Origin: Candidatus Rokuibacteriota bacterium | Lineage (GTDB): Bacteria; Methylomirabilota; Methylomirabilia; Rokubacteriales; CSP1-6 | Assembly (NCBI GenBank): GCA_016188005.1 | Contig: JACPIQ010000086.1 | Location: forward strand, 1-64,000 | Length of the DNA: 64,000 nucleotides | Direction of reading: 5' to 3' | Shown: positions 944 through 9,102 of the stretch, piece after piece | Layout: every line of letters starts with the position of its first letter | Position numbering within the stretch: the stretch's first letter is position 1 | Notes under the pieces: generated by a model | What the model was told of the DNA's origin: nothing | Databases searched by the model: none | The model's input: only the letters and a program-made list of their open reading frames with translations | Translations under genes and position numbers: made by a program

Positions 944-1630
944 ATGACCCCGCAGGCCCGCAAGGAAGCCGCCCTCATGGACGCCGAGGTCCGCGAGAAG
1001 ATCCACCTGGAGATCCTGAAGCGCACCGGAGCCTACCACGCCAATGACCACATTCTCCTTCCCTCGGGTCACCACACCACCGAGTACATCGAGAAGACGC
1101 TCGTCACCACCGAGCCTGCCTTCACGGAGGGACTCGGGGCGGTGATTGCCAAGCACTTCGCCCCCTGGCCCCTGGACGTGGTGCTGTCCACCGGGCCCGG
1201 GGCCCTGATCCTCTCGCACTGCGTGGCCCGGGCGCATCCCTCCCGTCCCACCGTGATGTACGGCACCAAGGGCGTCAGCGCGGGCAAGCGTCGCGTCACC
1301 CTGCCGGCGGAGTTCCACCGCCTCGTGCGCCCCGGGACGAAGGTGCTCATCGTCGAGGACCTGGTGAGCTCCGGACAGACGGTGCGTCTCCTGACCCAGC
1401 TCGTCGAGGAGCGTGGCGCCCAGGTGGTCGGCATCGGCGCGCTCTGGCGCCGCACGAGGAGGGCCGAGGTGGACGGGAAGCCGATCTTCAGCCTGGTGAG
1501 CCGCGACTTCCCGACGTATGCGCCCGAGACCTGCCCCCTCTGCAAGAAGGGCGTCCCTCTCAATCAGGAGTTCGTGAAGCGGCGCGAGGCGCGCCGGCCC
1601 TCCTCGGCCCAGGAGCACGAGACCTCCTAG
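944..1630 (+). CDS. Orotate phosphoribosyltransferase-like protein (type I PRTase)
   Basis: This 228-residue protein carries the PRPP-binding signature VLIVEDLVSSGQT at about residues 134-146, with the acidic pair (E-D) and the S-S-G-Q-T loop of type I phosphoribosyltransferases. The early region with HILLPSGHHTTEY resembles orotate PRTases (PyrE), whose substrate is orotate plus PRPP. The C-terminus adds a CPLCKKG motif, which is unusual for PyrE. The ATG at 944 follows a strong GGAGGAGG site at 931-938; an in-frame ATG at 884 lacks such a site. No pyr gene is adjacent, so a role in another PRPP-dependent reaction or in salvage remains possible. Confidence 0.72.
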   Translation: MTPQARKEAALMDAEVREKIHLEILKRTGAYHANDHILLPSGHHTTEYIEKTLVTTEPAFTEGLGAVIAKHFAPWPLDVVLSTGPGALILSHCVARAHPSRPTVMYGTKGVSAGKRRVTLPAEFHRLVRPGTKVLIVEDLVSSGQTVRLLTQLVEERGAQVVGIGALWRRTRRAEVDGKPIFSLVSRDFPTYAPETCPLCKKGVPLNQEFVKRREARRPSSAQEHETS

Positions 1631-1708: not shown

Positions 1709-1738
1709 TTGACAGCCTTTCCACCCTCCCCGTAGAGT
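1709..1738 (+). promoter_or_regulatory. Sigma70-type promoter for the micropeptide/EamA transcript
   Basis: A consensus -35 TTGACA (1709-1714) is followed after 18 nt by TAGAGT (1733-1738), 4 of 6 matches to TATAAT. The predicted start is near 1745, about 45 nt before the micropeptide ATG at 1791. This is a good match for such GC-rich DNA. No other gene start lies between it and 1791. Confidence 0.5.
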
Positions 1739-1790
1739 CCGGACAGACGATCAAGCGCAAGGACGCGCGGAACGGGAGGGAGGTGACAAG

Positions 1791-1829
1791 ATGGCGAAGA
1801 AGAAGGCGGCCAAGAAGAAGAAGAAGTAA
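1791..1829 (+). CDS. Possible 12-residue lysine-rich micropeptide
   Basis: The ORF encodes MAKKKAAKKKKK (9 of 12 residues Lys) and ends in TAA. It is preceded by one of the strongest ribosome-binding sites in the window (GGGAGGGAGGTGA, 1774-1786), about 5 nt before the ATG, and by a TTGACA/TAGAGT promoter about 50 nt further up. That combination argues the region is transcribed and translated, but the ORF is far too short for homology. It could be a true basic peptide, a leader peptide sensing lysine or translation rate ahead of the EamA gene (63 nt downstream), or a chance reading of a purine-rich tract. Confidence 0.4.
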   Translation: MAKKKAAKKKKK

Positions 1830-1846
1830 GGCGCCCGATCTGGCGC

Positions 1847-1879
1847 TCGGCCCTGTCGGCCCCATCCCGGCAGGGCCGA
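1847..1879 (+). promoter_or_regulatory. 9-bp perfect inverted repeat between micropeptide and EamA gene
   Basis: TCGGCCCTG (1847-1855) pairs with CAGGGCCGA (1871-1879) across a 15-nt loop. No T-run follows, so it is not a canonical intrinsic terminator. It ends 13 nt before the EamA ATG and could modulate expression of that gene together with the upstream lysine-rich ORF. Confidence 0.35.
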
Positions 1880-1892
1880 ACCATCTCCGACG

Positions 1893-2768
1893 ATGACTCC
1901 CGCCCGCGCGTACGGCCTGCTCCTGCTGGTGACCCTCCTGTGGGCCGGGAACTTCCCCCTCGGCAAGCTTGCGTTGCTGGAGCTCGGCCCCATCACGCTC
2001 ACGGCCGCGCGGGCCACGCTGGCCGCGCCGGGCCTCGTCCTCCTCGCGCGCCTCACCCACGGCCCCTTCCCCGCGTTCGCGCGGCGGGATCGCTGGACCT
2101 TCGTCGTGATCTCCCTCACGGGGCTCGTCGGCAACACCACGATCTGGTACTGGGGCCTCTCTCACACGAGCCCCGTGAACGCCGGGATCCTGGGCGCCGC
2201 GGCCCCCGTGATCGTGGCGCTGGCGGGCGCCGTCTGGCTCGGCGATCCTCTCGCCCCGCGGCACATCCTCGGCATCGCGGTCACCATGGGGGCCGTGCTC
2301 CTCACGATGTCCCACGGCTCCCCGGAGGCCCTGTTGACGCTGTCCTTCAACCGGGGCGACCTGATCATCCTGGTCTCCCAGATCGCCTGGGTCGGCTACA
2401 CCGTGTTCAGCCGGGCGAGCCGTTCGGAGCTGCCGTCGCTGACCGTGCAGGCCGGGGCGCATGTGGTGTCGCTGGCGGTGCTGGCGCCCCTGGCGCTCCT
2501 TGAGCGCCCGTGGCAATCCCTGGCGGCAGCATCCTGGGTGGGCTGGGGAGTGATCGTCTACGCGGCCGGGCCCATCGCGCTGGGGCACATCTGGTACTAC
2601 CAGGCGATCCGCATCGTGGGGGCGGGCCGGGCCGCCGTCTTCATGAACCTCGTCCCGTTCGTCGTGATCGCGCTGTCATGGCTGATCCTGGGCGAGCCGA
2701 TCCGCTGGTACCACCTGACGGGAGCCACGGTCGTCATCGGCGGCGTCGCGCTGGCCACGGCCCGCTGA
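1893..2768 (+). CDS. EamA-domain (DMT superfamily) transporter
   Basis: This 291-residue integral membrane protein has about ten hydrophobic segments arranged as two EamA repeats (roughly residues 5-140 and 150-290). The N-terminal helix carries LLWAGNFPLGKLAL, and the end of the first repeat has the pattern P-V-I-V-A-L, both typical of the drug/metabolite transporter superfamily. Members export or import amino acids, nucleobases and similar metabolites; the substrate cannot be read from sequence. It lies between a possible lysine-rich micropeptide and the threonine degradation pair, so an amino-acid link is conceivable but only inferred. Confidence 0.85.
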   Translation: MTPARAYGLLLLVTLLWAGNFPLGKLALLELGPITLTAARATLAAPGLVLLARLTHGPFPAFARRDRWTFVVISLTGLVGNTTIWYWGLSHTSPVNAGILGAAAPVIVALAGAVWLGDPLAPRHILGIAVTMGAVLLTMSHGSPEALLTLSFNRGDLIILVSQIAWVGYTVFSRASRSELPSLTVQAGAHVVSLAVLAPLALLERPWQSLAAASWVGWGVIVYAAGPIALGHIWYYQAIRIVGAGRAAVFMNLVPFVVIALSWLILGEPIRWYHLTGATVVIGGVALATAR

Positions 2769-8601: not shown

Positions 8602-9102
8602 TCAGCGGCGGGGAGCGCCCTTGACGGGCTTCGCGAGCTTGCCCTTCTCCCCGTCCTTGATGAGCCCCTTCACCTCGTCCATGAACTGCGAGATGTCCTT
8701 GAACTGGCGGTAGACGGAGGCGAAGCGGACATAGGCCACCTGGTCGAGCTTCTGGAGGTGCTCCATCACCAGTTCGCCGAGCTCCTTGCTCGTGATCTCC
8801 TTCTCGGCCCGCTCGTGGAGCCTGGCCTCGATCTCGGCCACCACGTCGTCCACCGCCTGGACTCCCACGGAGCGCTTCTCGCAAGCCTTGAGGATGGAAC
8901 CGCGGAGCTTCTGCCGGTCGAAGGACTCGCGCCGTCCGTCCCGCTTGACCACGTGCGGGAGCACGTCCTCGACGTACTCGTAGGTGGTGTAGCGGCGGTG
9001 ACACTTGAGACACTCGCGCCGGCGCCGGATGAACTCGCCGTCGCGTCCCACGCGCGAGTCCACCACCCGGTCCTCGCTGTGGCCGCAGAAGGGGCACTTC
9101 AT
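8602..9102 (-). CDS. nrdR: Transcriptional repressor NrdR
   Basis: NrdR is an ATP/dATP-sensing repressor of ribonucleotide reductase genes. The 166-residue protein has the N-terminal zinc ribbon (C3, C6, C31, C34: MKCPFC and CLKC) followed by the ATP-cone domain ([20 protein letters not shown], about residues 50-140). The C-terminal tail, [14 protein letters not shown], is basic. The ATG at 9102 overlaps the glyA stop (ATGA), so translation is likely coupled. glyA-nrdR adjacency is common in bacteria; no nrd gene is present in the window. Confidence 0.95.

Follow-up and report, generated by a model that had tools for sequence, protein, structure and literature searches.

A 12-codon open reading frame on the plus strand of the window, as we call the whole 64,000-nt stretch of DNA analysed here (contig C86 of a 5.37-Mb Rokubacteriales genome, phylum Methylomirabilota), has the features of a free-standing micro-gene, and its product is proposed to be a micropeptide that is highly expressed, polycationic and binds nucleic acid. 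Support for the gene itself is good; the function is deduced from sequence, and for the combined reading we would put the chances at about even.

Organisation of the micro-gene in the window

The micro-ORF, MAKKKAAKKKKK, occupies 1791..1829 of the plus strand, from an ATG at 1791 to a TAA stop; it is recognised by its sequence and by its conservation across the class, and the gene lacks annotation. Ahead of it lie a promoter at 1709..1738 (plus strand; TTGACA at 1709-1714, TAGAGT at 1733-1738, spacer of 18, with ATTTT ahead) and a Shine-Dalgarno (SD) region, GGGAGGGAGGTGA, at 1774..1786. The motif scan returned no second sigma-70-like site within 1600-2000 on either strand, where shuffled sequences averaged 0.0. 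Direct reading and the scan thus bear out the promoter and the very strong ribosome site described in an earlier note on this DNA, and the coordinates it gave for an EamA gene 63 nt downstream, with an inverted repeat at 1847-1879 in between, are also correct. The same note counted 12 codons, as we do, but nine lysines, where 8 of the 12 codons encode Lys. The downstream gene, an EamA-family transporter at 1893..2768 (plus strand, from the sequence and the gene-order table), has no evident SD and is best described as a historical neighbour; the closest NCBIfam model, YddG, scores 62.7 bits, well short of its cut-off of 300. Upstream, at 944..1630 on the plus strand, is a pyrE-like orotate phosphoribosyltransferase gene (placed from the gene-order table and named from its sequence), found there in the window's lineage only. 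Positions 1-180 of the window hold near-identical, GCTCGCC-rich direct repeats adjoining a minus-strand gene (132-923) that reads as TsaB-like.

Within the 64 kb, on both strands, no ORF of 7-30 codons other than the micro-ORF has both an SD ahead and a Lys content of 50% or more. When SD-preceded ORFs of 9-20 codons rich (at least 50%) in any one residue were counted on both strands of approximately 1.35 Mb of class loci, Lys gave 158 and every other amino acid 0, the zeros being the informative part as these loci had been picked for Lys ORFs.

Conservation and selection at two loci

The earlier note had held that absence of the ORF from close relatives would count against it, and the opposite was found: DNA of positions 1700-1830 is matched in 49 of 60 relatives, the match shortening to SD and ORF in the distant ones. 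Across 95 genomes, a pattern of the SD plus first codons had 74 matches (reversed-pattern control, 0), and a strict full-ORF pattern was present in 60 of the 95 (control, 0). The consensus peptide is (M/V)(A)KKK(A/K)(A/T)KKKKK, with a length of mostly 10-13 residues. Gene order, read around approximately 100 loci, places the ORF at two conserved sites per genome, with at most three copies in total. Locus 1, to which the window copy belongs, has its own promoter and a single ORF, flanked by a divergent radical-SAM/B12 gene on one side and convergent nrdR-glyA on the other, with EamA downstream in some genomes. For the window's lineage, pyrE takes the upstream place that the radical-SAM/B12 gene has in other lineages, and nrdR lies at 8611-9102 of the window. 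At locus 2, a gene for a 349-aa winged-helix protein comes first, immediately after it the micro-ORF, single or as a tandem pair, and beyond that convergent rpmB, with recG next; locus 2 of the window's own genome (L002) has the ORFs VKKKKAVKKGGKKKAVKKGKRK and MAKKKATKKKKK, and its 22-aa variant matched no protein family in NCBIfam. Searches anchored on neighbouring genes gave the same two sites. At least one micro-ORF was present at 30 of 30 loci anchored on the winged-helix gene, with two at 22, and one lay no more than 1.5 kb from nrdR in 19 of 30 cases; at the remaining nrdR-anchored loci, the window included, other genes are inserted between the two. The start signals of locus 1 are as constant as the ORF, with GGTGA 4 nt ahead of the start in 34 of 35 copies and a TTGACA - 16 to 18 - TAGCAT/TAGAGT-like promoter, approximately 33-56 nt upstream of the start and mostly with ATTTT ahead, at 29 of 29 copies examined, a count that excludes six divergent copies.

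Selection can be read from the codons. For the 12-codon ORFs of locus 1 (n = 18), pS is 0.51 and pN 0.067 (pN/pS 0.13), so that synonymous changes exceed non-synonymous ones, as protein-coding selection predicts; other length classes, in which shifts of alignment register inflate pN, give 0.28-0.65. Composition stays K plus A/T/G/S while third codon positions vary, and by these sequence measures the amino acids of the micro-ORF are under purifying selection. Class-wide, 156 of 156 unique copies end in TAA or TAG and none in TGA, a set gathered in part with a pattern demanding TAA/TAG and in part by DNA, short-pattern and winged-helix-anchored searches that had no such demand; TGA is the commonest stop (26 of 39) among the called long ORFs of the window. 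A chance ORF is ruled out by the conservation, the codon-level selection, and the reversed-pattern and residue controls. On this comparative evidence, the micro-ORF is a real gene, vertically conserved at two loci and retained after loss of EamA.

Related ORFs extend beyond the order. A Methylomirabilis-type genome (G045, a single contig of 2,752,854 bp) has a homologous tandem pair, MAAAKKPAAKKAAPKKAAPKAGKKTGRGC and MAAAKKKAATKKTATKKK; the tandem micro-ORFs lie at 1833-2110 of its locus L100, and the first of these sequences is a KPAA-like 29-aa variant. Outside the class, among the matches listed from 84,980 species genomes, Lys ORFs of the same kind, encoding 8-14 aa, occur sporadically in many phyla, including Nitrospirota, Planctomycetota, Verrucomicrobiota, Levybacteria, Omnitrophota, Chloroflexota and DPANN archaea. 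The corresponding control, again among the matches listed, gave 108 start sites for in-frame gap lengths (5/13) and 17 for out-of-frame ones (8/13), and nearly all of these 17 are starts of longer ORFs. The strict pattern is present in 7 of 246 Nitrospirota; for 299 Pseudomonadota it returned the seed genome only, whose match is no such peptide. Neighbours are constant inside a phylum and differ between phyla: serS and secA, one on either side of the ORF, in Levybacteria (L128, L144, L151, L161, L203), a radical-SAM gene and smc in Brocadiales-like planctomycetes, and phosphomannomutase and ftsK in FCPU426/Goldbacteria. Given the low complexity of the peptides, homology and convergence across phyla cannot be told apart.

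Alternative readings of the locus

The order of elements in the window (Lys codons, hairpin, then EamA at 63 nt) together with a run of codons for the amino acid to be sensed would suit a lysine-sensing leader that controls EamA by attenuation, as the earlier note had proposed. EamA comes right after the ORF in the window's lineage, and it does so too in one species of a second genus (L084) and in a different family of the order (L026); this last case makes the linkage old. Conservation of the ORF and of the linkage part ways from there, since EamA is missing at most locus-1 sites, where the SD, the ORF and mostly the promoter and hairpin are retained. It has decayed to fragments beside an intact micro-ORF and hairpin at L008 (1292-1447) and L055 (1657-1833), and of two species of one genus, G005 has EamA (L084) and G026 does not (L031), while both keep the ORF. 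At locus 2, in the window's own genome and in relatives, there is neither EamA nor any co-directional gene directly downstream, the next gene being convergent rpmB. Folding and alignment found no conserved structure competing with the stable 3′ hairpin, no alternative antiterminator is evident, and the conserved alanines would be needless for a lysine sensor. An ORF kept without EamA, and a second locus free of it, indicate that EamA control is not the conserved function; attenuation is already largely refuted and we consider it very improbable. The genes upstream of the tandem ORFs offer a different partner. Across five other families of the class (f5-f9), these ORFs close an operon of a 189-aa wHTH/degenerate NTase, which is PADLOC PDC-M05A (E 6e-46), and a 149-aa HEPN protein, which is PDC-M05B. 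Additionally, a PDC-M05A homologue (E 7e-38) lies immediately upstream of MAAKKKAAKKKKK in Nitrospirota, and the winged-helix protein of Rokubacteriales locus 2 is weakly AbiEi_2-like (21.3 bits, cut-off 21). The peptide might then serve such a PDC-M05-like or AbiEi-like module as a small regulatory or effector partner, say by modulating the regulator or the HEPN protein. In the window's genome, M05A and M05B genes were seen at neither locus, the neighbour at locus 2 being the AbiEi_2-like wHTH. However, locus 1 stands alone, the chromosomal position is fixed, and the ORF adjoins serS-secA, smc or ftsK in other phyla. Four plasmid PDC-M05A homologues have no Lys micro-ORF alongside, on which ground we reject the idea that PDC-M05 generally has the micropeptide as its third component, and partnership in the wider sense seems to us quite unlikely. 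As an observation in its own right, the PDC-M05A - PDC-M05B - Lys micro-ORF operon is a conserved chromosomal arrangement (L036, L034, L074, L092, L075, L094, L097, L098, L224), in which a candidate defence pair is inherited vertically.

Another reading centres on the transcript itself. Just past the stop codon, a small GCGCC/GGCGC hairpin (1831..1846, plus strand) appears in the MFE structure, with a sequence that differs between genera; it is followed by a sequence-conserved RNA hairpin, TCGGCCCTGTCGG...CCGGCAGGGCCGA (1847..1879, plus strand), and by the tail CCATCTCC (1881..1888, plus strand), which in the predicted fold is able to pair with the SD (GGAGGUG/CAUCUCC). The locus-1 alignment shows the same succession after the stop, where CGGCCCTGTCGG...CGGCAGGGCCG follows a GC hairpin of variable sequence. 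The lower eight pairs of the conserved hairpin are identical in all 29 aligned sequences, and pair 40/58 is U-G in 21, U-A in 5 and C-G in 3, broken in none, a pattern that suggests an RNA hairpin on this strand; the fold z-score is -2.37 against shuffles. Searching with the hairpin only gave one copy per genome, adjoining the micro-ORF in 27 of 27 genomes, and recovered a copy (G087) that had escaped the earlier ORF searches. As the hairpin is single and always beside the ORF, we reject its reading as a genome-wide REP or standard terminator sequence. At one locus (L299), the usual hairpin after the micro-ORF has given way to a long inverted repeat (GGGGTCAGGCATGCGTATTTGCGTTG...) that may be a mobile or REP-like element. 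Conservation of the hairpin sequence and the CCATCT tail beyond the need of a mere terminator hints at an additional role at the RNA level. Strong SD, purine-rich ORF, invariant hairpin and anti-SD-like tail could all be parts of a dual-function or regulatory RNA as the main agent, with translation of the ORF tuning folding, stability or ribosome binding. Against this, selection acts at the amino-acid level, no Rfam family matches near threshold, and the hairpin search, with its single match per genome at locus 1, finds none at the locus-2 copies, making the ORF the constant part; we regard the RNA as an unlikely main agent. Similar weight goes to a ribosome-associated mini-protein in the manner of bS22/eL41 or bL37, very short, basic and seated in an rRNA pocket, which we count as a serious though improbable rival because bS22 (PF08213) is absent from Rokubacteriales, undetected in 59 of 59 genomes searched (f1-f4, the window's own included), and present in most other members of the class (31 of 35, f5-f10). 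Also, bS22 is itself short, 61% K/R, and left unannotated in Borrelia (PMC10618245), and locus 2 adjoins rpmB, in convergent orientation. On the other side, the micro-ORF does not match the bS22 family model, loss of bS22 is one phylogenetic event, and low complexity with a shifting register does not suggest a fixed docking site. Simple replacement of bS22 is rejected, as some genomes in f5, f7, f8 and f9 carry both it and the micropeptides.

Proposed function and relation to known systems

The H1-tail-like variant speaks for a free nucleic-acid-binding polycation, as do the composition, the copy number and the expression signals, and the earlier note's second option, a nucleic-acid-binding peptide, fits these as well as the selection. 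Locus 1 comprises a promoter, a short 5′ UTR, a near-maximal SD, the 12-codon ORF and a 3′ hairpin, and its transcript would be translated at a high rate. The product would be an abundant polycation of 10-14 residues, in essence a detached Lys-rich tail like those of histone H1-like proteins, which may bind DNA or rRNA, and possibly polyphosphate, electrostatically. It could thereby be the peptide equivalent of polyamines, serving compaction or stabilisation, and the conserved hairpin would terminate and protect the mRNA. Against the polycation, a 12-mer made of K and A would attach to polyanions of any kind, peptides so short may undergo quick degradation, and the peptide could arise merely as a side product when ribosomes load on a regulatory RNA; the strict conservation of the 3′ hairpin noted above tells the same way.

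There is a bolder version of the polycation reading, to which we give a slim chance. On it, the ORFs would represent an ancient class, spread across phyla, of free polylysine micropeptides 8-14 residues long; no dedicated nucleic-acid-binding protein known would be shorter, and they would have escaped notice because annotation does not reach down to such lengths. The peptides of Rokubacteriales would in part have assumed the role of the lost bS22, and the locus-1 mRNA would carry a dedicated, conserved 3′ RNA element. The open literature searched prints MAKKKAAKKKKK in no paper and describes no such family, and the global microbial smORF catalogue GMSC covers, in principle, ORFs of at least 30 nt (PMC11364881). 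A 12-codon gene with near-maximal expression signals, order-wide conservation and recurrence in many phyla would be invisible to standard annotation. It provides a defined target for asking whether chromosomes or ribosomes have cationic peptides of such small size (<15 aa) among their dedicated components. The question is directly testable, given that bS22 is missing in complementary fashion from the same order, a group of uncultured bacteria from soil and groundwater, and that variants occur in enrichable Methylomirabilis-type genomes.

Among known systems, amino-acid leader peptides (attenuators) likewise pair a short ORF dominated by a single amino acid with a hairpin downstream, whereas the micro-ORF has no conserved regulated gene downstream and outlasts EamA. 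The genes directly upstream of the tandem ORFs belong to or resemble the candidate defence module PDC-M05 and AbiEi-type regulators; the PADLOC models of PDC-M05 span two proteins (M05A and M05B), and the micro-ORF is not among them. With bS22/eL41/mS38 and bL37, the peptides have in common that they are very short, mostly K/R and easily overlooked in annotation. However, bS22 has a recognisable sequence (PF08213), while the micro-ORF is half as long, low-complexity and multi-copy, and the two occur together in some families. Lysine-rich tails are found in AlgP and PhaF (KPAA repeats), in Chlamydia Hc2 (lysine-rich pentamers) and in HU. All micro-ORF copies are K-rich, mostly with A/T/G/S, and KPAA-like repeats appear in the Methylomirabilis-type genome, where a homologous ORF has KKPAAKKAAPKKAAP; DNA binding by KPAA-repeat peptides in vitro has been reported for AlgP (PMC9239181). 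The peptides are K/A(/P)-rich, disordered and polycationic like histone H1-like tails, but those tails belong to larger proteins, whereas the micropeptide stands free as a 10-14-mer and has a gene, an SD and, at locus 1, a promoter of its own.
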